Shown here: positions 9,454 to 52,330 of the stretch, piece by piece
How positions within the stretch are numbered: the first letter of the stretch is position 1
Layout: the number at the start of each line of letters is the position of its first letter
Assembly (NCBI GenBank): GCA_011037195.1
Contig: JAAEAF010000100.1
Span: forward strand, 248,001 to 312,000
Origin: Triatoma infestans
Taxonomy: Eukaryota > Arthropoda > Insecta > Hemiptera > Reduviidae
Direction of reading: 5' to 3'
DNA length: 64,000 nt
Position numbers and translations under genes: made by a program
The notes under the pieces: model-generated
What the model was told of the DNA's origin: nothing
The model's input: only the letters and a program-made list of their open reading frames with translations
The model's database searches: none

Positions 9454-10758
9454 CTACCAAATCGTCCGCGAATGCAAGGACACTATATTGTACTGGATCA
9501 TATTTCTGTACCCTAATGTAAACGATCTCATTCCTGCCTTCGCCCTCCTCAGAACACCGCCTATAACAATTGTGAAGAGTAGCGGACTTAGGCTACAGCC
9601 CTGCCGGATGCCCTGGGTGGTGGTAAACTCTCTTGACAAACGGTTAGTAGTTCTTACCACATTCCTCGTGCGGTGGTAGAGACTTAGAATGGCCTTCTTC
9701 AATCCTGTCTCAACTTCTTTTTCTTCTAGTGCTGCTCTTATATCTCTCTTCTTAACTCGGTCGAAAGCTTTTGTGAGGTCCACAAAGCATACCCTTGTTC
9801 CTCTTCCTTTATCTATGAGCTTTTCAGACAATTGTCTTATTACAAAAATAAGATCCTGAATGCTCCTGCCTTGCCGGAACCCGTATTGTTCCTCCATTAA
9901 TGAAGTCTCCACTTTCTTCCTAAGTCTCGTTTCTAATATTTTTGAGTAAACTTTACTTGGTATCGAAAGAAGAGAAATACCTCGATGATTTTCGCACTCT
10001 CTATTATCCCCCTTCTTAAAGATTGGTACTATTGTTGAAATCTCCCATTCTTGGGGAATGCATTTCTTTTTCCAGACTAGGTTGAGGAGGTGTTGCATAA
10101 TACGTTGTCCTTTGGCTCCCATGTATTTCAGCATTTCTCCGGTTATACCGTCGGAGCCTGGGGCCTTGCCCTGTTTCAATTTTATTATAGCTTCTTCGAG
10201 CTCGTCCTCACCTATAAAATCGTCTTCTTCCCGCTCCTCTCCCATCTCCTGGTCTATCTCTCCCGTCTCTCCTTCGTCCTCTAGTAACTCCTTGAAGTAT
10301 TCTCTCCACCTTTCCATGACCTCAACATCATTCTTAAGGATCCTACCTTCCTTATCTTTAATAAACTTCAATACTGGTTCTTTTTCTCTCCTCATATTCT
10401 TTAATACTTTATAGAAAACCTTCTGGTTTGCCTTATAATTTTCTTCCATTTTTTCCCCGAACTCCTCCCATTTCCTCCTTTTTGCGTCTAAAACCAAGTC
10501 TTTTACTCTCTTCCTCTGGATCTTGTATATCTCATAATCTGTGTTTGTTTTCGAGGTGAGATGTGCTTTCCATTTATCCTTCTTTTTCTTTACCTCCCTT
10601 TTGATTTCCTCTGTCCACCATGCTGTTCTTTTCCTTCTTCCTCCCACTCTGTTCTTTCCGCAGACTTTTTCGGCTGATTCCAGCAATAGTGTCTTAAACG
10701 CTGTCCAGGATGTCTCTATATCATCACTATCCCAATTGTATCGTCCCGATTCTTCCAA
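9454..10758 (-). pseudogene. LINE reverse transcriptase, fingers and palm
   Basis: Motifs in order: WWTEEIKREVKKKKDKWK linker; KLKQGKAPGSDGITGEMLK; ISTIVPIFKKGDNRECENHR with GISLLS; EEQYGFRQGRSIQDLIFVIR; catalytic motif A in VCFVDLTKAFDRV; and motif B in TTQGIRQGCSLSPLLF. After QYNIV the frame slips. The catalytic motif C is still written in the neighbouring frame at about 9455-9480 as LAFADDLVDF. The domain sequence is largely complete but no longer translatable as one protein. Confidence 0.9.
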
Positions 10759-11171
10759 ATGTCCAGTTCCTCTTGATAGGCCTGAGCCACTTCCTCCTTC
10801 CTTAGCTTGTAGGCTTGGGTTTTATATCTTGGAGGGGCCTTCGTACCTCCACCTCTGCCACTTCCAACCTTCTCTTTATAGATTCTATCTAATTTTACCA
10901 GATAATGGTCACTACCTATTTCATAGCCTCTCTGTACTCTTTCTCCCCTGTTGGGTTCTTCTCTTGTATATTTATGGGCCTCTTTATGAGGGAAGAGTGA
11001 GTTGGCCACCACCAGGTCATTCATTATGCAAAAATTCAGAATCCTTTCTCCGTTATCATTAAGATGGGTTTCTCCATATCTCCCAAGCGCTCCGTTCCAA
11101 TTCTTCCCACCGCAGCCTACTCTACCGTTGAGGTCGCCGATGACTATAATGTTATCCTTGGCGCTGTCCAT
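10716..11171 (-). pseudogene. LINE endonuclease domain, C-terminal half
   Basis: NIIVIGDLNGRVG holds the GDxN catalytic motif, NDLVVANSLFPHKEAHKYTR is the usual downstream loop, and EIGSDHYLVK holds the SDH catalytic motif of the endonuclease. The linker toward the reverse transcriptase follows (RYKTQAYKLRKEEV). The frame breaks near 10740 and continues in the 9454-10758 frame, overlapping it by about 40 bases, which marks a frameshift. Confidence 0.8.
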
Positions 11172-11640
11172 TTCTTTTTTAAGTGCTTCAAAGAAAGCGT
11201 CCTGTCTGCTGAATTGGCATCTTCATTAGGGCCGTACCCAATTATGATTGTCAGGTTTTCTTCGTTTTCTTCTTCAGTCTCTACCACCATCAAACGACTG
11301 TTAACACCTCTCCATCTTTTCAGTCTGTTACTGAACTCCTTATGGAAAACGCATCCCACTCCTGCTTTGGCCCTTTCACTGTAGCTCATTCCGGAATATA
11401 GGGCTATATAATCACCCATTATGGACTCCCCCGTGCCTTTCCTCTTTGTCTCTGTGATTCCCAAAATATCCACCTTGGCCTTCTTTGTTTCGTCCGCAAG
11501 CTCTTCCTCCTTTCCCCCCAATCCTCTAACATTCCATGTTTCTAAACGTATAAACCTTTTTCCTCGCCCGGTCGTGTTCCTTAAAATCAGTCCAGCTCTA
11601 TTTCTTGGCGTACTTGTGATAAATTATTTCGGGACTATAG
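11144..11640 (-). pseudogene. LINE endonuclease domain, N-terminal half
   Basis: This frame contains ETWNVRGLGG and VDILGITETKRKGTG, the latter carrying the catalytic glutamate of apurinic/apyrimidinic endonuclease-type LINE nucleases. YSGMSYSERAKAGVGCVFH and IIGYGPNEDAN follow, both typical of the family. The true frame begins upstream of the Met-like codon at 11521, since TWNVR lies in frame before it; a stop is met near 11625. The frame is lost after ADRTLSLKHLKKKW and resumes in the next one at about 11170. Confidence 0.8.
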
Positions 11641-14418: not shown

Positions 14419-14646
14419 GGGGAGGGATTGTCTAAGTGGTTAGTGCGTTGGACTTCCACGCGGAGGTCCCGGGTTCGAGTCCAATGCTACCCTTAGATTT
14501 TTTTCTTCCTAGGAGCCTCTGCAGCTCACTGTTCGGTAATGGACAGTGTTGTCTGTAGGGAGAGAACACTGTCCGCAGGCAGGCAGTGCACTGAGAAGGC
14601 TCCGGGCGCTAATGACCATAGATACTGACGCTCCTTAAATAAAAAA
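14419..14646 (+). mobile_element. tRNA-headed SINE, copy 1
   Basis: The head has tRNA-like promoter boxes: an A-box-like TGTCTAAGTGGTTAGTGCG and a B-box GGTTCGAGTCC, spaced as in a tRNA gene. The unrelated body contains CCTAGGAGCCTCTGCAGCTC, ACTGTCCG and a GTGCACTGAGAAGGC block, and the tail is A-rich. The same head, body and tail recur at 26291-26487 and, on the minus strand, at 51214-51454. It is not a functional tRNA gene: the acceptor stem does not pair and it runs into the SINE body. Confidence 0.8.
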
Positions 14647-14647
14647 T

Positions 14648-15705
14648 CTAGTGTAAAACACTCACACAACTTTCTCTTACTCCAGTTCTCAAAATTATAA
14701 TTGACAAATTTTATACTTTGTGTACCAAATTTCATGAAATTCGACGAAAACTGAAAAAACTGTTCAGTAAAAGCGCACTTCCGGTTAACTAATTTTCTTG
14801 AAACTCGGAATTTTGGCCATCCGTTCATTTCTAATTAATTTTGTTTGGATGATAGAATTTTATAATCAACTATGATAGCACTTTAGAGAAAAACATAACC
14901 CCACCCCTCCCATAAAAGTTCAATTAAATGAATTTTCCTAGAGAAATGTTTTAAATGAAAGTTGTAGATCATTGTATGTTTAGTTTATATAATACGCTTC
15001 AAGAAAATCTCTGAGCCATTTTTGAGAAAATCGCGAAAAAGTGGAAAAATCGTTTAGTAAACTGGTAAAGTAAACGCACTTCCGGTCATCCGATTTTTCC
15101 AAACTCGGAATTTCAACAAAATTTAGTTCTAATTAACATTATTTGGATGATGGAATTGTTTAATAAACTGAAATAGCACTTTAGATGAAAACCTTACCCC
15201 ACCCAAGTAAACTTGTTACGGGGAGCCATAACTGCCCTTAAATGAATTTTTCCAGAGAAATGTTTCAAATAAAAGTTATAGCTCTTTGTATATGTAGTTC
15301 GTATACCAAGTTTGAAGAGAACCGTCGGAGCCATTTTTGAGAAAATTGCAAAAAAGTAAAAAAATTAACAAGTAAAGTGATACTTTCGGTTGAGGAATTT
15401 TGACAGATGACCCACTGTCAGATGCCATGGTGATACCTAAACGGAATATCAAGTTTCAACTTTCTACGTTTTTTGTTTTTGAGCTATGCTGTTCACACAC
15501 ACACACACAGAGGGAGAGACACACAGACACACACACACACACACAGAGGGAGAGACACATAGACACACTCAAACACACAGACCATTTGCTAGAAACCACT
15601 TTTTTGGGCTCAGGGGACCTCAAAACGGATATTTCCGGTGAAAACTCGATATCGAAAATTTAACACGATTACAATACTTCCTCTTACTAGGAGTAAGAGA
15701 AAGTA
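14648..15705 (-). repeat. Family A repeat, complete copy, reverse
   Basis: The left end is GTGTAAAACACTCACACAAC followed by the inverted-repeat element TTTCTCTTACTCC. The right end is the hairpin CTCTTACT-AG-GAGTAAGAG followed by AAAGT. Inside are units of about 300 bp, each containing CGCACTTCCGG, ACTCGGAATTT, a CCCCACCC-type patch, AGAGAAATGTTT and TTTGAGAAAAT (unit starts near 14770, 15070 and 15380). A CA/GAGAGA microsatellite follows at 15494-15576. It abuts SINE copy 1 on the left. The frames at 14526-14828 and 15400-15663 are accidental. Confidence 0.85.
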
Positions 15706-16020
15706 AAAAAAAGTAACAGTTTAGTAAAATCGCACTTCTAGTTGATTTATTTTCACTGCAAACTTCAAATTGTTGTAGTGTCTTCTAAATGGGATATTAA
15801 GTTTGAGCTACCTTAGGTTTAAGACTAGTAGTAACTGATTGGTACATAGAAGACCCGCATGATAGCGCCGCCATCCAGCCCAGAAATACTGGTTGCGCAT
15901 TTGAAAATTTTCAAATCTTAACTTTCCCAGAATCCACCTAAAATCAAAAAAGTTGCCTACAGTTTGTACCAAAAAGATTGGTACAGTTTGCATTTAAGGA
16001 AATTCGCGAAAAATCTTGTA
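15706..16020 (-). repeat. Family A partial copy, reverse
   Basis: After the complete copy, AGTTTAGTAAAATCGCACTT begins another, decayed stretch of the same repeat. It continues to AATTCGCGAAAAATC at about 16005. No end structure is seen. Confidence 0.5.
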
Positions 16021-20053: not shown

Positions 20054-20605
20054 CATTTTTACTTTCTCTTTGCTATCGTGTCAAATTTTCGATATCGTTT
20101 TCTCACAGGATATACACGTTTTTGGGTCCCCTGAGTCTGAAAAAGTGGTTTTTAAACATTTCTTTTGTCAGTGTATGAGTGTGTGCGTGGTCAGCATAAC
20201 TTAATTCGACAAATCGCAGAAAATTCATACCTTAAATTTAGATTAAACGTTAGCTTGGGAACCGACATCAAGATTTTGATTAAAATCGTTCAACCAGAAG
20301 TAAAACTTTACTGATGGATTTTTCAGTTTTTTCTCGATTTTCCCGAGAATGGCTCTAACGATTTTTCTTTAAAATTGGAATATTAACTGCAACATATTTG
20401 TAATATTCTGAAACATTTTTTCCCGAAAAATTCATTTAAGAGATGTTTTGGGGCAATGATGGGGTTATGTTTTTGTCTATAGTGATATTTCAGTTATTTA
20501 TAATCATTCTACCATTTACGTACTATTAATTTCAATGAAGTATGATGCCAAAATTCCGAGATTGAAGAAAAGTGGTTCAACAGACGTACAACTTTACTGA
20601 AGCTT
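20054..20605 (+). repeat. Family A partial copy, forward
   Basis: The copy starts with TTTTTACTTTCTCTTTG, CTATCGTGTCAAATTTTCGA and the CCTGAGTCTGAAAAAGTGG block. It continues through one central unit (CAACCAGAAGTAAAACTTTA, CGAGAATGGCTC, AGAGATGTTTTGGGG). It is cut off where the next copy starts at 20608. Confidence 0.75.
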
Positions 20606-21011
20606 TTTACTTTCTCTCGCTCCTAGTAAGAGGAAGTATTGTAATCGTGTCAAATTTTCTATATTGAGTTTTCACCGGAAATATCGGTTTTGAGGTCCCC
20701 TGAGTCCAAAAAAGTGGTTTTTAGCAATGGTCTGTATGTGTGTTTGTGTGTGTGCGTGTGTGTATGTATGTATGTATTATGTGAACAGCCTAGCTCAAAA
20801 ACTAATAATCGTAGAAAGTTCGAACTTGATATTCCGTATAGTTATCACCATGGGATCCGACCGTGGGTCATCTGTCAATATTTCTCAACCGGAAGTACCA
20901 CTTTACTTTACAAGTTGTTTTTTTTACGTTTTTGCGATTTTCTCAAAGATGGCTCCAACGATTTTCTTCAAACTTGATATCAATTACACATACTAACAAC
21001 TACAACATTTG

Positions 21012-21195
21012 TTGTGGTGGTTGATTCCGCAGAGCTGGAAATCATCAGAGACATTTTCCGTGGTAGCCTGCTTCATTTTGTGGTCATCGACCGGTTTCGG
21101 GCGTTCGCCCATCTTCAGGATGCGTTTTTTAGACAGTGTGACAACACAGACTCGCACAGAGCAAACTTAGTTTCACACTCAGTGAACCTAATATT
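21012..21195 (-). mobile_element. Short insertion carrying a hammerhead-like core
   Basis: This block interrupts family A and is richer in G and C than its host. Its layout (a lead of about 70 bases, then the reverse complement of a hammerhead core, then a decayed trailing segment) parallels the insertions at 44962-45288 and 54300-54460. Penelope-like retroelement terminal repeats are known to carry hammerheads, so it may be a solo terminal repeat or a short non-autonomous derivative. That assignment is an inference. Confidence 0.55.
21080..21126 (-). ncRNA. Hammerhead-ribozyme-like motif
   Basis: On the minus strand the order is: stem I strand CATC; core box CTGAAGA; one extra T; stem II GGGC-GAAC-GCCC; core box GAAA; minimal stem III CC|GG closed with A-U (ACCGGT palindrome); cleavage-type GTC; then GATG, which pairs with CATC. 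All conserved core positions (CUGANGA and GAAA) are present. The very short palindromic stem III is typical of dimer-acting hammerheads in satellite and Penelope-like sequences. The extra base before stem II is the main doubt. No activity is shown. Confidence 0.6.
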
Positions 21196-22700: not shown

Positions 22701-22734
22701 AACGGAAATAGTATTTTATAAAAAATAAAAACAA

Positions 22735-23567
22735 AATCTGGTGTGAAACACTCACACAACTTTCCCTTACTCCTGTTCTCAGAATTATAATTGACAAATT
22801 TTATAGTTTATGTGGCAAATTTAACGAAATTCATCGAAAACTGAAAAACTGTTCAGTAAAAGCGCACTTCCGGCTTACTAATTTTCTTAAAACTTGGAAT
22901 TTGGGCTATCTATTTATTTCTAATTAATTTTGTTTGGATGATAGAATTGTATGATTAACTATGATACCACTTTAGAGGAAGCTGTAACCCCACCCCTCCC
23001 CCAAAAAGTGCCCTTAAATGAATTTTCCCAGAGAAATGTTTTAAATAAAAGATGTTATGCATGTTTAGGTTATATACGAAGTTTCAAGAAAATCGTCGGC
23101 GCCATTTTTGCGAAAATCGCGAAAAAGTGAAAAAAATCATTCAGTAAAGTGTTAAAACAAACGCACTTTCGGTTAACGGATTTTTTCAAAATCAGAATTT
23201 CAACAACATATTCAATTCTAAATAACATTATTAACGTTATTAACAATTCTAAATAAACTGAAATAGCAGTTAGAATGAAAACCTAATCCCCTTCACCCCC
23301 AGAAGTGCCCTTAAATGAATTTTCCCAGAGAAATGTTTCAAATAAAAGTTTTAGCTATTTGTATGTGTAGTTGATATAACAAGTTTAAAGTTAATCGTCG
23401 GAACCATTTTTGAGAAAATCGCAAAAAGGTAAAAAAAAAAACTAGTAAAGTGGTACTTCCGGTTGAAGAATTTTGACAGATAATGCACCTTCAGATCCCA
23501 TGGTGATACCTAAACGTAATATCAAGTTTCAACTTTTTACGGTTTTTCATTTTTGAGCTATACTGTT

Positions 23568-23601
<34 letters not shown>

Positions 23602-23722
23602 ATTTGCTAAAAATCACTTTTTTGGACTCGGGGGACCTCAAAACGGATATTTCCAGTAAAAACTCGTTATCGAAAATTTGACACGATAACAATACTTCCT
23701 CTTACTAGGAGTAAGAGAAAAT
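22735..23722 (-). repeat. Family A repeat, complete copy, reverse
   Basis: Left end GGTGTGAAACACTCACACAA with CTTTCCCTTACTCC; right end hairpin CTCTTACTAGGAGTAAGAG. Central units start near 22862, 23160 and 23455 at the (A)CTTCCGGTT landmark, spaced about 300 bp. The microsatellite slot is occupied by a TA run (23574-23600) rather than the CA run seen in other copies. Confidence 0.85.
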
Positions 23723-23729
23723 AATAATA

Positions 23730-24060
23730 CTACCTTTTTCCCCTAAAAGCCGCCTTAAATGATTTTTCCCTGACAAATATTTCGTATAAATATTGCAGCT
23801 CTTTGTATGTGTAGTTAGTGAGTTAGTATAAAATCGTCAAAACTAGTTTCGAGAAAATAGCAAAAAAATAACTGAAAAATCTATTCAGGAAATTGGTACT
23901 TCCGGTTGAGGAATTTTGACAGATAATTTACTGTCGAATCCCATGGTGATACTTAAATGGAATATTAAAGTTTGAACTTTCTGCAATTTTTCGTTTTGAA
24001 AGCTATGCGGTTCATATAAATGTATACAATCAAACATACACGAACTTCCGCTCAAGTGGG
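23730..24060 (-). repeat. Family A partial copy, reverse
   Basis: It starts in a central unit (CCGCCTTAAATGATTTTTCC) and continues through TACTTCCGGTTGAGGAATTT and CCCATGGTGATACTTAAATG to the ATGCGGTTCATATA landmark before the microsatellite slot. Confidence 0.7.
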
Positions 24061-26487: not shown

Positions 26488-26544
26488 TTTATTCAATTAT
26501 AAATGTATTTTGATTTTCTTATGACTTATGAATGACCCTCTTTT

Positions 26545-27549
26545 TACTTTCTCTTACTCCTAGTAAGAGGAAGTATTGTAATCGTGTCAAATTTTCGATA
26601 TCGAGTTTTCACCGGAAATATCCGTTTTGAGGTCCCTTGTGTCCAAAAAAATGGTTTTTAGCAAAGTCTGTCTGCCTGTCTACGTGTGTATGTATGTGGA
26701 CAGCATACCACAAAAACGAAAAACCGTAGAAAATTCAAACTTGATATTCCGTTTAGGTAGCACCATGGGATCTGACCGTACTTTATCTGTCAAAATTCCA
26801 CAATCGGAAGTACCACTACCAGATTTTTTTTTTTACTTTCTTGCGATTTTCTCAAAAACGGCTCCGATGATTTTCTTCAAACGCGTACATCAACTACACA
26901 CACAAAGAGCTACAACTTTTGTTTGAAACATTTCTCTGGGAAAATTCATTTAAGGGCACTTTTGGTGGAGAGGTGGGGTTAGGTTTTCATCTAAAGTGCT
27001 ATTTCCAAAGTTTATTGGACAATTCGCTCATCTAAATAATGTTAATTAGAATTAAATATATTGTTGAAATTCCCAGTTCGAAATAAATCGCATAAACGGA
27101 CATGCGTTTACTTTACCACTTTACTAAATGTTTTTTTTTTTTCATTTTTTTGCGATTTTCTCAAAAATGGCTCCGATGATTTTCTTGAAACTTCATATAT
27201 AAGCTACGCATACAAAGATCTACAACTTTTACAAATAAGATTTCTCTAGGAACATTCATTTAAGGGCACTTTTAGGGAAGGGGTAGGGTTATGTTTTTCT
27301 TTAAAATGCTATTATCATAGCTGATAATACAATTCTATCATCCAAACAAAATTGATTAGAAATAAATAGATGGCCAAAATTCGAAGTTTCAAGAAAATTA
27401 GTAAACCGGAAGTGCGCTTTTACTGAACAGTTTTTTCAGGTTTAGACGAATTTTATTAAATTTGGTACCCTAACTATAAAATTTGTCTATTATAATTTTG
27501 AGAACTGGAGTAAGAGAAAGTTATGTGAGTGTCTCACACCAGATTTTTT
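26545..27549 (+). repeat. Family A repeat, complete copy, forward
   Basis: The hairpin end (TTTACTTTCTCTTACTCC, then TAGTAAGAGG) opens the copy. CGTGTCAAATTTTCGATATC and TTTTCACCGGAAATATCCG follow. Central units are spaced about 300 bp (TTTTCTTCAAAC at 26872, TTTTCTTGAAAC at 27180, then a third). The far end is ACTGGAGTAAGAGAAAGTTA followed by TGTGAGTGTCTCACACCAGA. The two ends share the inverted ACTTTCTCTTACTCC. This is the best copy for a consensus. The frames at 26627-26926 and 27061-27249 are accidental. Confidence 0.85.
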
Positions 27550-28070
27550 AATTTAAAGTTAACTGTTAATTGAATAATTCTTGAATATAAAAAAATAATA
27601 CGTCTCGCATGGTGTTAAGGCAAAGATTCAGTAAAAGTTTCTGTTGGCCAAATATTTTGGTCTCCTACTAAATTTAAATTAATTTAAATAACCAATTAAA
27701 AAAAACAATAGACCAAAAAGCTTTAACCGAATACAATATGTTTTTGTTAATTGTTAAATAGTTGAGATAATTTGCCATTGAGTTTGAAACAATCCATTGT
27801 ATATGTACACAAATTAATTAATTACTAGTTAGTTTGGTTGAACTTTAGGAGAAGTGCTTAGCAAGAACTTAGGGCATCAATAGTTTAACTTAGTATTGGC
27901 CTGACAATACTGAATTTAGCCTACTAAAACGTACATGATAACTATTTTATCACATTCCTTACATAAATATATTATTATCTGGTATATTATATACATTGTA
28001 AGCGTTTATTATAATATAGAAATAAAATCAATTATAAAAAAATGGATGAATTAAAAAAAACATAAAAGTC
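27550..28070. other. AT-rich stretch, no gene seen
   Basis: Nothing recognisable except that it lies between two family A copies. Confidence 0.35.
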
Positions 28071-38924: not shown

Positions 38925-39872
38925 TGTGGTGTGAAACACTCACACGACTTTCTCTTACTGCAATTTACATAATTAATAATTGAATAATTCTCTTCGAACA
39001 TATAATTCTTACTAGATTTTTAGTTACCTTCAATTTACCTGAATGGGAGAATCTGAACTTTATAAAAAAGTTCTTTTTTTAAAGGAAAGTATAACCTCCC
39101 TCAATACCCCCATTAAATGGATTTTGCCGGAAGCAGTTACAACCAAAAGTGGTCTCTACGTATATGCTTCTTAGGTATACCAAGTTTTAAAAACACTTTA
39201 TCAATGGTTTTTATGGAGAAAATGACAGAAAACGAAAAAAAAAAAACAATTGTTCAGTAAAGTTCACTTCCGGTTCAACTGATTAAAACAATTGTTCAGT
39301 AAAGTTCACATCCGGTTCAACTGATTAAAACAATTGTTCAGTAAAGTTCACTTCCGGTTCAACTGATTTTTATTCAAGCTCGGAATTTTGGTAACTTAAA
39401 TAATTCTAATTAATATTACATAGATAATAATTAGAATCGTATAATAAATTAAAACTGCACTTTAAAGATCACCCCCATTCCTCTCCCAAAACTCTCTTAA
39501 ATGAATTTTCCCGGAGAAATGTTTTAAATGCAATTTGCAGCTCATGGTATGTATCGTTGATATCGCAGATTTAAAGAAAATCATTGGAGCTATTTTTGAG
39601 AAAAATCTCAAAAAAGTGAAAAATCCATTTTTGTGAAAAGTGTAACTTTTGGTTGATTGATTTTCACCAAAACCTTATTGTCAGATCTCCCATTGGTGGA
39701 ACTTTCTATGATTTTCCGCTTTTTTAAGCGGTAATGCTTACAACGCACACGCATATATACACACACACCAATTTCTAAAACCTCTTTTTCTGTCTCAGGG
39801 GATCTCAAAACGTATATATTTCCGGTGAAAGTTAGATATCGAAAATTCGCCGCAATTGTATTACTTTCTCTA
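38925..39872 (-). repeat. Family A repeat, near-complete copy, reverse
   Basis: Far end GTGGTGTGAAACACTCACAC with GACTTTCTCTTACTGC. The hairpin side ends TATTTCCGGTGAAAG, TATCGAAAATTCG, then a decayed CTTTCTCTAAGAATGG. It carries a 42-bp tandem triplication at 39243-39368 and a CA microsatellite at 39750-39766. The minus-strand frame at 39608-40027 runs over the copy end and is accidental. Confidence 0.8.
39243..39368 (+). repeat. 42-bp tandem triplication inside family A
   Basis: The unit AAAACAATTGTTCAGTAAAG...GGTTCAACTGATT (42 bp) occurs three times in a row, starting at 39243, 39285 and 39327. The copies are nearly identical; one CACTTCCGG reads CACATCCGG. This is a recent local expansion. 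Confidence 0.9.
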
Positions 39873-43117: not shown

Positions 43118-44829
43118 ATTATTTTTATTGAATAAAGCATATTTAATTTAACAATAAAATCAATCTATTGATTTTATTCTTGTGTTTCAATCTTAAGTGA
43201 TTAAAAATGTTTACAAGTACTGGCTGCAATAACAACGTTTCCATGTCTGAGATAAGTGCAATTCAATGCTCTTAGAGTATACTATATTGGCAAACATCTT
43301 GTTTTAGAAATGGTAGAATCTTGTTTCTTGTTTATTAATAGATTAATAGAATAGAAATATGAATCTTATAAATTACGAACGATTATTAAATATTTAACTT
43401 AAATAAAAATAATATTTAATTAAATCGTTATATATAATGTTAGTGGTAAAGCGTGTTTATCTATTATATAATAATAGGTGAACATTTGAAGGTTAATTTT
43501 GTAGTCTGGTGCTGTTTATAGGCCTAGTGGAAACAAGTTATAAAGGCGGCCGCCCCGTGGTGATGTTAAGGTAGTGGAATGATTATGGGGAGACGGTCGG
43601 TCGGAGGCGCGGCAGTGTTTAACTAGGGATGGTGGGGCGAAGGGGGGGAAAGCGGCCGGCACGTGAGAGCTGTTCAGGTGTTATCGGAACATAACCTAGA
43701 TTAAACTTTATTAACGGGCTGTTTTAAACTGTATGCCCTTGCTAATGAGCTCCAGCCCAGAACCTTGTATTACCTTGTACATAAAACAGAACACCAGCAA
43801 ATGGAGGAAGTTAGACGAGAGGTGAACACACTCTGGAAGCGAGAAGAACTAACGTAAATAACGGGCTGATTATCGATCTGATTTCCGGACACCTGGGTGG
43901 GGAGTGTGCACGTCTCAAGAAAATATCATGTTAATTTTCATATTCTTAATATTTAGTTAAGATTTCTTGGCATCTTCTGGTGAAATAAATGAAAATAACG
44001 TTTGCTTGTTTTTTTTTTTCAAATTTTTTATAGTTTAATTCTTTTTTAAATTATCCCAAAAAAAAACACCTATGAGAAAAATAATAATTATGTGTCTTTA
44101 CAGTAATACATATCAATAATAGACAATACAGTAATACATATCAATAATAGACAATACAGTAATACATATCAAGTATATATGTGTATCTTCTTATGGTTAC
44201 AATAACGCTATTGTACAGGCAACAATAACTAGTAGTTAATGGTGATAATACATTGTTGAAACTATCACATTTTTGTTACTATTGTAGAATCTATGATGGG
44301 AATAACAGTAAACCATGGCTAGAGCTCGCTAGTTCATGGATTGGACGAAGTTATGTATAAGGAGAGAAAAGAAACCTTTTCTTCGTTTTTTTCCCCCAAA
44401 GTAGACAGCAGTAGACTTTTCTTTACAAGAAGATTCTATTTTTATTACGTCATATAGAGGGTGCTTGTGTAAGACGAACACACATATATATATATATCTG
44501 CTGAATATATATATATATATATCTGCTGAATATATATATATATATATATTATATCTGCCTAGTGTTAAAGGAAAATGTATGAGTATTGTGTTTGGGTTTT
44601 TGTTTGTGATTTTTTGTTTGTTTTGTTTTGTCTCTGTCCTAGTTTTGTTTGTGTGACGCTTTTAAGATTGTCGCTTGATATATTGGCTTTACTTTATTTT
44701 TAAAAAAATTAAGGAATAAGTGAATATTTCATCTATTTCAAGAATAATAAATTTTCTATAGTATGTCAGATTATATACATTCCAGGTTTTTCTTTTTTAT
44801 CTCACATCCTGTTAATAATATAAATATTG
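43118..44829. other. No gene seen; GC-rich patch and simple repeats
   Basis: A GC-rich patch with CGGCCG motifs lies at 43545-43670. A 28-bp unit (CAGTAATACATATCAATAAT, then AGACAATA) is repeated almost three times from 44101 to about 44172. TA runs separated by CTGCTGAA lie at 44484-44549. Confidence 0.45.
44101..44172 (+). repeat. 28-bp tandem repeat
   Basis: Two complete and one partial copy of a 28-bp unit beginning CAGTAATACATATCAA, with identical complete copies. Confidence 0.9.
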
Positions 44830-47084: not shown

Positions 47085-47141
47085 TCTGACATGAACACTC
47101 GAATAACTTTCTCTTACTCTAACTAATACATTTATATATAT
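47085..47141 (-). repeat. Family A far-end piece, left flank of the LTR element
   Basis: CTGACATGAACACTCGAATA, ACTTTCTCTTACTCTAACTA matches the reverse far end at 42609-42650. The repeat breaks at 47142 and resumes at 50578, so the LTR element sits inside this copy. Confidence 0.75.
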
Positions 47142-47533
47142 TGTAACGCAGCCAGTGGTGCCTTCTAGGAGAGAAGGCAAGTACCTAAGGTTCTCTTAGT
47201 GGCTGTAGGAAGCGCTGGCGGCGCTCTAGTTTTCTCTGGAATAGTTGAGAAAAGTCTAGAAGGTTCTCTACCGGTATAAATAGAGGAACCACAGAGAGTT
47301 AGGAGAGTTTTTCAGTTACAAACGAAGTCACTAGTTTGTGAAAAGTGTACAAAAAGTGAACAAACTGAACTTTTGTGGTTTAAACTGTGAATTAATATTA
47401 AGTGTTGTATTTTGGTAATTTATTTTGTATAACAATAAATTGGTGTTTTCTTTTTTGAAGTTTAGAGTATTTTATCTATACGAACCCACTTAAAACTAGT
47501 TGCAGTAGCTAGTTTAGTTGGAAAAACGTTACA
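47142..47533 (+). repeat. 5' LTR
   Basis: This 392-bp direct repeat of 50214-50577 has TGTAACG...CGTTACA ends. It contains a TATA box (GGTATAAATAGAGG, TATAAA at 47275-47280) and a polyadenylation signal AATAAA at 47434-47439, in the order expected for U3-R-U5. It has a 31-bp segment near 47191-47221 (around TTAGTGGCTGTAGGAAGCGC) absent from the 3' LTR. Confidence 0.9.
47275..47280 (+). promoter_or_regulatory. LTR TATA box
   Basis: TATAAA sits within GGTATAAATAGAGG in the 5' LTR. The equivalent in the 3' LTR is at 50316-50321. It would drive transcription rightward through the Gag-like and UBR5-derived frames. Confidence 0.65.
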
Positions 47534-47535
47534 TT

Positions 47536-47553
47536 TGGTGTCAGAAGTAGGAT
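47536..47553 (+). promoter_or_regulatory. Primer-binding site, tRNA-Leu type
   Basis: TGGTGTCAGAAGTAGGAT begins three bases after the LTR end. It is complementary to the 3' end of a leucine tRNA (…CCCACTTCTGACACCA) with one mismatch. This is the usual site for priming minus-strand DNA synthesis. Confidence 0.8.
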
Positions 47554-47595
47554 AACATCTCTAAACAGGTAACAGTTTAGTATCAGTTTTGTTGT

Positions 47596-47805
47596 ATGCC
47601 CATACGTACCAGAAGTCAAACGCGGAAAATGGAGGAAATGATGGCATTGTTGAAGGAAATGAAAGACAAAATAGAAAGGGGCCAGGACGAAATAAGAAAC
47701 GAATTGAAGAAGAGCCGTGATGAAATGAACGAAATAAAGAGGGGCCAAGATGAAATAAAAAACAAAATAGTGAGAAGCCAGGATGAAATGAGAGGAGAAA
47801 TATAA
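47596..47805 (+). pseudogene. Gag-like N-terminal coiled-coil segment
   Basis: The first ATG after the primer-binding site opens MPIRTRSQTRKMEEMMALLK, followed by repeated charged heptad-like units (KIERGQDEIRNELKKS, EIKRGQDEIKNKI). A TRSQT start and an E/K/R-rich coiled coil are common at the N-terminus of insect Gypsy-type Gag proteins. A TAA at 47803-47805 ends the frame. Past it and a TGA at 47905-47907, the same frame runs into the UBR5-derived part, so the original product was probably one Gag-UBR5 fusion. No capsid or zinc-knuckle region follows. Confidence 0.65.
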
Positions 47806-47950
47806 AGGGAGAAAGATGAGATTCAAGAAGAAATAGTAGAAAGTTTAGAAGCACCAGTGAATGATGGGAAAGGCAGTGAGACTGAGGGTGAAAGAGAAGT
47901 CGAATGAGAAGGACCCGTGAGAGAAGTCGAACGTGAAGGTGCGGAAAGTG
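47806..47950 (+). other. Gag-to-UBR5 junction region
   Basis: Purine-rich sequence encodes E/V/R-rich residues (KDEIQEEIVESLEAP, GSETEGEREVE, stop, EGPVREVEREG). It contains a short imperfect duplication (GAAGTCGAATGAGAAGGA and GAAGTCGAACGTGAAGGT) in which one copy holds the TGA stop. UBR5 similarity starts near AESESENLL at about 47941. The two sources share glutamate-rich GAA repeats here, a plausible template-switch point. Confidence 0.55.
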
Positions 47951-49539
47951 AAAGTGAAAATTTGTTGGTGGGAACTGAAAGCGACAGCGATCAGACTAAC
48001 CAAGGAACTGTACAGCATCGTTCTTCTAATACCCTGCATACTTCTATGCTCGGAGAAGATGAAAGTGGTGATTTAATGAAAGTGGCAAGTCAGCATGAAG
48101 AGAATGATGGAGAAAGCGAAGGATTGAGTCATGAAGAAATGTTGCTTGGAGATGAACAGTTAGAAAGACGTTCGGGACAAAGTGGTCAGGGCCAAAGGAG
48201 TAATCTTTCTCTTCAGCCAATGCAGTGGGCTATTAGAAGTGCAGACACCGGTTCAAAATTATCAGGTGGTTTCCGAGTAGCTTATGGCAATTCATTGGTA
48301 TTCATTGATCCGTCCTCATTGAGGCGTTCAACTAACACATCTTCGGCATGCAATAGTAACCCGGATGGGGTCACCAAGCCTACAACAGCTGCTTGTTCGG
48401 CTAGAAGTTTTGCTATTGTACTGCGACAAATTGCAGATCCTTTGGGCAGTTTACGTAATGTTAGTGCACCACAGCAACAACCCGTGCCAATTATACAGAC
48501 CTATGTAGAAAGACCGTTAAAACCACCGTGGGATTGGCTTTTGACAATGGCGGATTCAACCGAATCTCGGTTGCGCTTTGGAGCTTCTCTTACGACAGCG
48601 TCAGATTCTGCACATCTTCATCATCCTCTCTACCATGGTTCAGGTTCCCCAAGCTCGAATAGTGGTAACGGGGTTAGCGGTAGTAATAGCGGAACTTGTG
48701 GTCTTTCGAATGGTGTACTATTTCTGGAAGTACATCAAGATCTACTACACAGTCTTCGCATCACCCTGGAGGTATTTCTTCGGCTCCTTCAACTAGGATT
48801 GTTGGTTTTACCATTAATTCTAGACTCTTCCAGACCATCTAGGGATCGTGACGGTGGCAATGAACGCCAGTCTGCCCGAAGGGAGTTGTTGATGTACTGT
48901 TTGTCATTGATGAGATGTTACAATTCTGAACATGCTGATTTATTACCAGTACTGGATGTATCTTCTCTCAGACACACGGCATATGTGATTGATGCTCTGA
49001 TCTACCTATTGAGGGCTGGTACTGATCAGAACGCTGCATTTGAGGAAGGTCTACTATCTCAAACATGGACGCAGCCAGATGAAAAGGAGAACGATAATGC
49101 CGAAGTCGATACGCCAACAACACCAGTCGCTATGGAGACAGAGCCTGTGAAAGAAGAAGAACCACTAGGAACAGCAGGAAAGGGTAGGCAGCATCCATTT
49201 CTCCGGAGATCAGATTCAAGATTATGGCTCGGCTGCAGTCCATCAGATCCGTTAGAGATGCCAATGCCACGAGCATTACCTTTAGCTGATCAGCCTCAAC
49301 TGTTGCAACCGAATGCGACTAGAGATCAGTTGTTTGGTGTACCTGAACAGCCAGAGAATATCAGCGAACATCAAGGACTCAGTTCTACAACCACTCAGCT
49401 TGGTACTTTACCTACACGTTTGGGATTTTCATTAAGATTTGAAAATGTACATCATTCTGAACCAGAACGAGAAGAGAAAGGCGGAGCAGTAGAGACTGGA
49501 CGAGAAAGTGGCAGTAGGGCCCAATGGAATTGGAGTTAG
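47908..49539 (+). pseudogene. UBR5: Captured UBR5/hyd segment, region upstream of HECT
   Basis: The frame holds, in order: acidic linker (DEQLERRSG...QRSNLSLQPMQWAIRS); NSLVFIDPSSLRRS; SARSFAIVLRQIADPLG; LKPPWDWLLTMADSTESRLR followed by FGASL; RRELLMYCLSLMRCYNSEHA with DLLPVLDVSSLRH; QHPFLRRSDSRLWLGC; ALPLADQPQLLQPNA; and LPTRLGF. These are the conserved blocks of UBR5 (Drosophila hyperplastic discs), a HECT E3 ubiquitin ligase, in native order and without introns. Between about 48715 and 48835 the native serine-rich reading (SGSTSRSTTQSSHHPGG) lies in another frame, so two compensating shifts are present. The Met-like start at 47917 is a GTG and not a real start. The UBR box lies upstream and is not included. 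Confidence 0.9.
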
Positions 49540-50054
49540 GTGCAGCTATACCAATCCAGGCACCTCCCCCTCCGCAGCCAAATGTGCCAATGATCCCGTC
49601 AGTTCACAGCGGTTAGGTTAACGCTGATGTGTTACTTGGGCGATGGAGAATGACATTAGACTTATTTGGAAGAGTAGCCATAGAAGATGTCGGATTAAAA
49701 CCAGGTTTAGTAGCCAGCAAGCTTGAAGGATTTCCAGTAAAAGAAGCCAAATTCAGAAGAGGTATAGAACGAATTAGAAATCAACAAAGTAGAGATCTTA
49801 CTCTATCGAAGGTGGAAAGAGATGGGACTCAGCTTCTATTCCAGACATCAAAAGAATTTCGCAACGTGTACAATTCACGTCAAAGACGTGCTGGTGCTCA
49901 ATCTCCGCTAGCAGTTAATGGAGTAAAAGTAACCCTCAAAGAAAACCTCGGAGAAGGCTCTGGCGTGGTAAGAAGCTTTTATACAGCCATCGCCGAGGCA
50001 CTGCTCGCAAATGAAAAGCTGCCAAATCTGGAAGATGCACAAGTTGGTTCCTGA
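49524..50054 (+). pseudogene. UBR5: Captured UBR5/hyd segment, pre-HECT and start of HECT N-lobe
   Basis: After a frameshift near 49510-49540 the similarity resumes one frame over: proline-rich AAIPIQAPPPPPQPN, an in-frame TAG at 49614-49616, then [20 protein letters not shown] with [22 protein letters not shown] with [23 protein letters not shown] and [20 protein letters not shown]. The last two blocks are the beginning of the HECT N-lobe in UBR5. A TGA at 50052-50054 ends the frame after DAQVGS. The MLLE domain, the rest of the N-lobe and the C-lobe catalytic cysteine are absent, so no ligase activity is possible. Confidence 0.9.
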
Positions 50055-50200
50055 TCTCAGTATAATGTTTTGTCAAGACTTGGCACCAGGGACAGAGATT
50101 CAAGAAGGCGTAGAATCACGGCGAGATCATTTTCCTCACGTTGTAGGAGCCCAAGAAGTACTTCATCATTCGAGTGTTTCTATTCGGGACGAACAGATCT
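50055..50200 (+). pseudogene. UBR5: Captured UBR5/hyd segment, arginine-rich tail up to the purine tract
   Basis: In the same frame past the TGA, SQYNVLSRLGTRDRDSRRRR and a serine/arginine-rich continuation match the RDRD-type linker inserted in the UBR5 HECT N-lobe. Similarity fades near ECFYSGRTDL, directly before the purine tract. The capture therefore ends within about 30 bases of the 3' LTR signals. Confidence 0.65.
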
Positions 50201-50213
50201 AAGAGGGGAGCAG
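50201..50213 (+). promoter_or_regulatory. Polypurine tract
   Basis: AAGAGGGGAGCAG lies immediately before the 3' LTR, where the primer for plus-strand DNA synthesis is expected. It is interrupted by a single C. Confidence 0.75.
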
Positions 50214-50577
50214 TGTAACGCAGCCAGTGGTGCCATCTAGGAGATAAGGCAAGTACCTAAGGCGCTCTAGTTTTCTCTGGAATAGTTGAGAAAAGTCTGG
50301 AAGGTTCTCTACCGATATAAACAGAGGGACCACAGAGAGTTAGGAGAGTTTTTCAGTTACAAACGAAGTCACTAGTTTGTGAAAAGTGTACAAAAAGTGA
50401 ACAAAGTGAACTTTTGTGGTTTAAACTGTGAAATTATTATTATTAAGCGTTGTATTTATTAATTTATTGTGAATAGCAATAAATTGGTGTTTTCTTTATT
50501 GAAGTTTAGAGTATTTTATCTATATGAACCCACTTAAAACTAGTTGCAGTAGCTAGTTTAGAGGGAAAAACGTTACA
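50214..50577 (+). repeat. 3' LTR
   Basis: This 364-bp direct repeat of the 5' LTR has the same ends, a TATA-like TATAAA at 50316-50321 and AATAAA at 50478-50483. It lacks the 31-bp segment present in the 5' LTR and shows about twenty substitutions or small gaps. Confidence 0.9.
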
Positions 50578-51720
50578 ATATATATATATATTATATCATT
50601 TAAAATTGCAACGTTACAATGTTTAGTGGGTCTAAAAAGTAGGGATTTTACTTGTATACCTCAGCGATCTTATCACGAGCGCTCTATATCAAAACCAACA
50701 AAGCTCGTACAAATTTAAACTAACTGAGAGACTCCTCCCAGTTCCCCTCTAAAATCATTTTTTTTTTTCAGAAAAATCTTTCAAATAAAAATGATACGTT
50801 TCTATCTTTGCAGAAAATCATTGTAACTGGTTCCGAGAAAATTCCAAAAACTCTAAAACCAATTTTGTAAAATCGCGCTCTTGATGAACAGATTTGCTTC
50901 AATTTGAAACTCCATCATTGTTTCCAGTGTGTATTAATATTATAGCATAGGTGGTAAAACCAAATATTATACTGAAGTAGTACATTACAGGAAAACGCAA
51001 CGCACCTGTCCTCCCAGAATCTCAATTTTCCCAGGCAAATGTTTTGAAAAGCAAAATAATAATTATTTATTTGTGTAATTGGTAGCCGAAGTTTAAAAAA
51101 AAGGCGTTGGAGCCTTTTCGAGGAAATCAAGAAAATTTGTAAAAAAACATTCAGTAAAATCGCACTTCCGGTTTAATGGATTTTGCCCGAAATCTTCTTG
51201 TCAGATTATTTTTTTTGTTTTTTTAATTTAAGACGCGTCAACATCTATGGTCATTTGCGCCCGAGGCCTTCTCAGTGCACTGCCGGCCTCCGGACAGTGT
51301 TCTCTCGTTAGGACAACACTGTCCATCACCGAACAGTGAGCTGTAGAGGCTCCTAGGAAGAAAAAATCTAAGGGTAACACAGCTGGACTCGAACCCGGGT
51401 CCTCCGCGTGAGAGTTCAGAACGCTAACCACTTAGCTATTCCCTTCCCTCTTCGTGTCTGATTATTTTTATTTTGCCTGAATAAATTACAAAACAAGTAA
51501 CATAAGGTTTGTCAAGAATACACATTAAACATATGTTTACAAGTCGAAATAGTCATTGCACTGAAGTTTACACTTTGTTCTCAATAAGAGAGAGAGAGAG
51601 AGAGAGAGAAAACACTATCGAAACTGTATTCAGTATATTTCTTAGTATTCAGTCTATCCTGAAGTGTCTTACCGCCCACTTCTCTTCAAGAAAATCATTT
51701 ATTTTATAGAAACTGTTTTC
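50578..51720 (-). repeat. Family A copy, reverse, right of the LTR element and split by a SINE
   Basis: TTTAAAATTGCAACGTTACA, the GAGCGCTCTATATCAAAACC block and CGCACTTCCGGTTTAATGG are family A sequence in the order seen at 4027-4400. The SINE copy at 51214-51454 interrupts it. Similarity fades after 51480. An AG microsatellite lies at 51583-51610. Confidence 0.65.
51214..51454 (-). mobile_element. tRNA-headed SINE, copy 3, with target-site duplication
   Basis: Minus-strand reading gives a head with A-box TAGCTAAGTGGTTAGCGTTC and B-box GGTTCGAGTCC, the TCCTAGGAGCCTCTACAGCT body block, GTGCACTGAGAAGGCC, and an A-rich tail at the low-coordinate side. TGTCAGATTATTTTT at 51199-51213 and TGTCTGATTATTTTT at 51455-51469 form a 15-bp target-site duplication with one mismatch. 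It is inserted in a family A copy. Confidence 0.85.
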
Positions 51721-51920: not shown

Positions 51921-52122
51921 TGGTTCAAATAGGTTTAATTGTATTTAATTCTGATTCGAAATGTTCCAAATTAGGAAATATTTGGGTCTAAAAAAGTTTA
52001 TTTTGATGGGTAAGTGTTCAATTTATTTAAAATATGGTATACATTGGTTCAAAAAAGAACTGATACGAGAGAAAAGTGATTAAAATTGTTCAAAAATAGG
52101 AAATATATTGGTTAAAAAAAAA

Positions 52123-52330
52123 GTTTAATTTGAATGGAAAAAGGTTTAATTTGAATGGAAAAGGTTTAATTTGAATGGATAACGGTTTAATTTGAATGGA
52201 AAACGGTTTAATTTGATTGGAAAAAGGTTTAATTTGAATTGAAAAGGTTTAATTTGAATGGAATACGGTTTAATTTGAATGGGAAAAGGTTTAATTTGAA
52301 TTGAAAAAGATTTAATTTGATTGGAAAAGG
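52123..52330 (+). repeat. 20-22 bp minisatellite, about ten units
   Basis: The core GGTTTAATTTGAATGGAAAA is repeated about ten times with minor variants (AACGG or AAAGG starts, GATTGG or GAATTG ends). Unit length drifts between 20 and 22 bases. The preceding 150 bases look like more decayed relatives. Confidence 0.9.

Follow-up and report, generated by a model that had tools for sequence, protein, structure and literature searches.

A chimeric LTR retroelement carrying part of the hyd/UBR5 gene lies in the Triatoma infestans DNA analysed here (the window, a whole stretch of 64 kb). Our main reading, to which we assign a probability of about 80%, is that of a non-autonomous LTR retroelement in which part of hyd/UBR5 would have been retrocopied by the LTR-mediated route, through two template switches. 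The unit runs in the order LTR, primer binding site (PBS), gag-like stub, UBR5, purine tract (PPT) and LTR, and every part of it has one sense (Table 1). That a single LTR unit carries hyd/UBR5 coding sequence was the central claim of the first-pass annotation, and it is borne out.

Table 1. Coordinates of the element and its parts within the 64-kb window.
Feature	Positions	Strand	Details	Basis
Possible target-site duplication	47138..47141	.	ATAT (partner 50578-50581), within AT microsatellite
Whole element	47142-50577	+	two LTRs, PBS, gag-like stub, UBR5 cargo, PPT
5' LTR	47142..47533	+	392 bp, TGTAACG...CGTTACA; TATAAA 47275-47280, AATAAA 47434-47439
Primer binding site	47536..47553	+	TGGTGTCAGAAGTAGGAT, starting 2 nt inside 5' LTR	sequence
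Gag-like N-terminal stub	47596..47817	+	74 codons, Glu/Lys-rich, 33/63-nt repeats, in frame with UBR5 part
5' junction	47818..47844	+	microsimilarity of gag-like repeat and UBR5, 17/25 informative bases	back-translation
UBR5/Hyd coding part 1	47818..49515	+	Rhodnius residues 1641-2210; TGA 47905	tblastn
UBR5/Hyd coding part 2	49518..50174	+	Rhodnius residues 2211-2491; TAG 49614, TGA 50052
3' tail	50175..50213	+	39 bases, presumably the element's own, purine tract AAGAGGGGAGCAG at its end
3' LTR	50214..50577	+	364 bp; TATAAA 50316-50321, AATAAA 50478-50483

LTRs, priming sites and gag-like stub

The two direct LTRs with matching ends that had been noticed at first sight are confirmed as a pair. 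At 392 and 364 bp, they have identical ends (TGTAACG...CGTTACA), present TATAAA and then AATAAA in the same order, and differ by 18 substitutions in 360 aligned columns and by 3 gap events (K2P 0.052). The differences are spread along much of the aligned LTR length. Agreement in ends and orientation leads us to reject a pairing of two unrelated repeats. The proposed priming sites also hold: TGGTGTCAGAAGTAGGAT, which we take to be of the tRNA-Leu type, lies just inside the 5' LTR, and AAGAGGGGAGCAG ends at 50213, abutting the 3' LTR. An AT microsatellite is present on both sides of the element, where ATAT, or a longer stretch, is a candidate target-site duplication.

We give almost no credence to a processed pseudogene made by a LINE and flanked by chance by two solo LTRs, or to an assembly chimera. 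LINE sequence does occur elsewhere in the 64-kb window, but the LTRs share common ends at about 5% difference, and a PBS and a PPT stand just inside them in coherent orientation. Poly(A) is absent between the cargo and the 3' LTR; with no poly(A) at the cargo's 3' end and both priming sites in place, the LINE-made pseudogene is rejected.

Within the 64-kb window, comparison of the window with itself (BLASTN, E <= 1e-5, matches >60 bp) gave no further LTR copies, ARAGORN found no tRNA genes, and a scan against Rfam returned no match. Searches of viral contigs with a 31-mer from the LTR, with the cargo protein, with two patterns for the primer site and with the 3' tail gave no exact match; of 7 pattern stretches obtained there, 0 were confirmed. 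A bacterial-type promoter scan is uninformative on a eukaryotic LTR.

The stub starts at the ATG at 47596 and is fused in frame to UBR5 (47818 minus 47596 gives 74 codons); a TAA at 47803 now breaks its frame. Gag-like is the weaker of our labels, suggested by position, by repeat character, and by what we take to be a resemblance to gag. The earlier call of a Gag part stands as to position and repeat character, but no homologue supports it: none of the 7 candidates from a protein search reached E <= 0.001, and its 13 matches in Pfam all fell under the curated cut-offs. This stub is the entire gag and pol content of the element. UBR5 sequence fills the remainder of the interior up to 50174 and leaves no room for pol; the element is therefore non-autonomous, and the first-pass annotation was right that pol is missing.

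The hyd/UBR5 cargo and its junctions

The identity of the cargo is firm. Rhodnius prolixus Hyd, aligned by tblastn to the 64-kb window as sole target with filters and composition correction off, matches both coding parts at E = 0.0. UBR5 lies in native order, and an intron-sized insertion is absent across Rhodnius residues 1641-2491, in keeping with the same-sense, apparently spliced blocks described at the outset. Among solved structures (phmmer, PDB), the frame 47908-49539 matches human UBR5 at 1604-2122 in two stretches (E 1.7e-57) and the piece 49617-50051 matches it at 2181-2316 (E 3e-43); at these values, chance similarity is rejected. The two pieces of the interior that hold UBR5 sequence matched no Pfam family.

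Used as a database query, the UBR5 part returned 489 proteins from 7981 scored. Among the best 120 of the 489, the first match was Rhodnius prolixus (72% identity over 98%) and the second Rhynocoris fuscipes (74% over 52%), both of them assassin bugs. At the 57 residues where these two species differ, the cargo has the Rhodnius residue 30 times, the Rhynocoris residue 9 times, and a third one 18 times; the balance of 30 to 9 places the source hyd gene, by residue agreement, nearer Rhodnius than Rhynocoris. A further protein search listed 81 of 7998 scored candidates, all at 52% identity or less, so that those scored included no near copy of the cargo with a length of 299-950 aa; in prokaryote genome contigs the cargo protein gave 56 pattern stretches, of which 0 were confirmed. 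Two open reading frames, P0002 and P0003, start within this span of Hyd with residues of unrelated sequence that lead up to the RSNLAPQSMQWAIR block, where the cargo reads straight through; this suggests an exon start at that block in the organisms carrying them.

Neither end of the hyd protein is in the element. The cargo stops mid-protein, at residue 2491 of 2956, and is followed by the 39-base tail with its purine tract. Its place in UBR5 is presumably in the interval that separates the UBR box from the MLLE domain, short of the catalytic end; lacking that end, it would be unable to work as a ligase.

Junction positions were set from protein alignments and back-translation. At the 5' junction, the copy of the stub repeat that lies 66 nt upstream shares 17 of 25 informative bases with back-translated UBR5; of 2947 placements made in frame along the Rhodnius protein, 2 reach this score, the junction among them. 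Lags of 33 and 99 score 13/25 each, and for lag 33 as many as 154 of the 2947 placements do as well. The test covered the 5' junction at three lags and was run once the junction was known. Read as a post hoc test at one of three lags, the microsimilarity is that expected at a template switch.

We propose the following origin. An active LTR element would have packaged spliced hyd mRNA in one of its virus-like particles. During minus-strand synthesis, reverse transcriptase would begin by copying the 3' LTR together with the purine tract and the tail; it would then switch onto the hyd mRNA at codon 2491, copy back to about codon 1641, and switch a second time onto the element's gag RNA at the shared Glu/Lys-rich stretch, so that gag start, leader, and primer site would be completed last. 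The resulting cDNA would keep all cis signals for movement and would be integrated by enzymes supplied in trans, and the cargo, having no selected function, would decay as neutral sequence.

Retroviral-style transduction, the route put forward in the first-pass annotation, in which an element inserted in hyd gives a chimeric RNA, by read-through or by splicing, that is packaged and then repaired at its 3' end, would likewise yield a same-sense, intron-free fusion of gag and host sequence. We consider it quite improbable: the 5' junction falls in shared repeat-like sequence and not at a shown splice junction, and reverse transcription must return to the 3' tail in any event.

Decay of the cargo and age of the insertion

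Three stops interrupt the cargo in frame, its reading frame changes three times, and 62 residues are missing from it. Besides the one in the stub, stops stand at 47905, 49614, and 50052; a further one, at 49537, follows a change of frame. The frame is lost and regained at about 48715-48822 (limits by eye). Further changes in length are a 4-codon insertion near 48073 and a 7-codon deletion near 48490. The 62 residues are absent at about 49612, a gap that could stem from exon skipping or from deletion between GGNTGG-like repeats.

We measured decay over 506 codons that are identical in the Hyd proteins of Rhodnius, Rhynocoris, Nesidiocoris, and Halyomorpha and are retained by the cargo, with 48715-48822 excluded. 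In the cargo, 85 of them are altered (82 changed and 3 stops). On the assumption that the LTRs underwent no gene conversion and that mutation rates are equal in the LTR and the GC-richer cargo, half the LTR divergence predicts 27 changed codons (binomial P 4.6e-8), about one third of those observed, and the full LTR divergence predicts 53, an excess that is moderately significant only (P 0.017). A second measure uses the 208 positions that are invariant in 36 native UBR5 proteins, a set of 36 of the 39 entries P0082-P0120 (P0094, P0109, and P0115 dropped by a length filter) in which some entries are isoforms of one species; 34 positions are altered in the cargo, stops included (16.3%), whereas each native UBR5, compared with the other 35 by leave-one-out, is altered at 0 to 5.8% (median 0). 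With these altered positions, the stops, the frame changes, and an end at residue 2491, a functional UBR5 gene or retrogene is rejected.

Stops apart, the rate of change is alike whether codons are conserved in two bugs (118/683), three (88/563), or four (82/503). The only sites with more change are the 57 that differ between the two assassin bugs, where 18 match neither, and species divergence would give the same result. Stops number 3 vs about 4.4 expected. There is no sign of selection on the cargo since capture; it is now dead, a fossil that could at most give sense RNA from the LTR promoter.

Because the changes in the cargo exceed the age of the LTRs, the cargo was probably decaying before the present insertion, and by its sequence it looks the older of the two. 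Recopying after capture is the simplest of the candidate causes, alongside a pseudogene source and LTR gene conversion. It is also the most likely, since decay exceeds the age of the present insertion: the cargo would have been copied at least once more after capture, and this later movement would need enzymes in trans.

The captured transcript may instead have come from an old processed pseudogene of hyd, in which case the excess decay would predate capture and the insertion may be the sole copy. Such a source accounts for the excess over LTR divergence without a second round of movement, but it requires an earlier, unseen, transcribed pseudogene, and the in-frame fusion and the microsimilarity fit a functional mRNA equally well. 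We hold it to be unlikely, if first in weight among the alternatives. LTRs can in general undergo gene conversion, which, by making them falsely young, would allow capture and present insertion to be one event. With 18 substitutions and 3 gap events separating the LTRs, conversion would have had to be partial or old; this explanation is unlikely too, and we rank it second. Recopying after capture remains our preferred account of the excess.

Relation to known captures and significance

The capture process is already known in animals, and the present element is a clear, well-preserved example of it. The first-pass annotation had held such captures to be undescribed, or scarcely described, in invertebrates. 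Published cases do not support this: LTR-mediated retroposition of host mRNAs is reported from Drosophila, mosquito, zebrafish, and chicken (Tan 2016, via PMC5408686), and its template switches are reported to fall at microsimilarities in both animal groups, vertebrates as well as invertebrates (PMC5408686); CG17604_r is described as an LTR-mediated captured gene, a pseudo-element that was later amplified (PMC8277862); and in a moth, the Pxyfem retrocopies of PxyMasc lie by gag fragments and give gag-host fusions and silencing RNAs (PMC9674220).

Metazoan LTR-mediated retrocopies resemble the present element in joining an apparently intron-less partial host mRNA to an LTR element by a switch at microsimilarity (PMC5408686, PMC8277862, PMC8232201); the hemipteran host and the hyd/UBR5 parent set ours apart. 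Polymorphic cases in Drosophila would have to be young, whereas the present cargo is strongly decayed. CG17604_r is likewise an LTR-mediated captured gene, and its amplification is reported (PMC8277862), whereas here amplification is suggested by the ages. In Plutella xylostella, Pxyfem shares an insect host, a partial spliced host cDNA by a gag fragment, and shared bases at the switch; for its part, Pxyfem is multicopy, its LTRs could not be identified, and it gives small RNAs against the parent gene (PMC9674220), an activity not known for the present element. By analogy, our unit might belong to a family of many copies, mobilised in trans, that took hyd sequence through several rounds of transposition and whose transcripts silence host hyd via small RNAs, a picture that we find very doubtful.

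In the open-licence literature (titles and abstract starts), there was no report of a UBR5/hyd capture, or of such captures in assassin bugs, among the matches listed. Beyond animals, maize Bs1 is a non-autonomous element with a gag-host hybrid frame. It too is an LTR element with host coding sequence; it differs in belonging to a plant and in holding parts of three cellular genes (PMC5408686).

As a fossil of the capture of a host gene by an LTR element in a bug, the unit has a clear anatomy: the LTR pair, the two priming sites and the point of fusion are all legible, as is the cargo's decay. Should there be more copies, capture, spread, and decay could be dated as a series in a lineage other than flies, moths, and plants, and one could test whether captured host sequence feeds silencing of the parent gene.

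Repeats in the window

The broken LINE-type copy matches PF00078, the reverse transcriptase domain, at E 1.9e-22; its endonuclease match, in an adjacent frame, is weak and lies under the cut-off. Pairwise hits among the five dispersed repeat stretches run in either orientation, at ~73-94% likeness.

Repeat features by window position
Feature	Position	Strand	Detail
LINE-type retrotransposon, broken	9454-11623	minus	reverse transcriptase domain
Dispersed repeat	14635-15709		
Dispersed repeat	20603-21013		
Dispersed repeat	22721-24042		
Dispersed repeat	26540-27556		
Tandem array	39243-39368		42 bp x 3
Dispersed repeat	39327-39847		
Tandem array	44099-44172		28 bp x 2.6
Tandem array making up gag-like stub	47663-47827		33/63-nt units, Glu/Lys-rich
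Tandem array	52117-52330		21-bp unit, ~10 copies

Tandem units of the gag-like stub

The tandem units that make up the gag-like stub, the short reading frame preceding the UBR5 part, may have aided the proposed template switch from hyd mRNA to the element's gag RNA.
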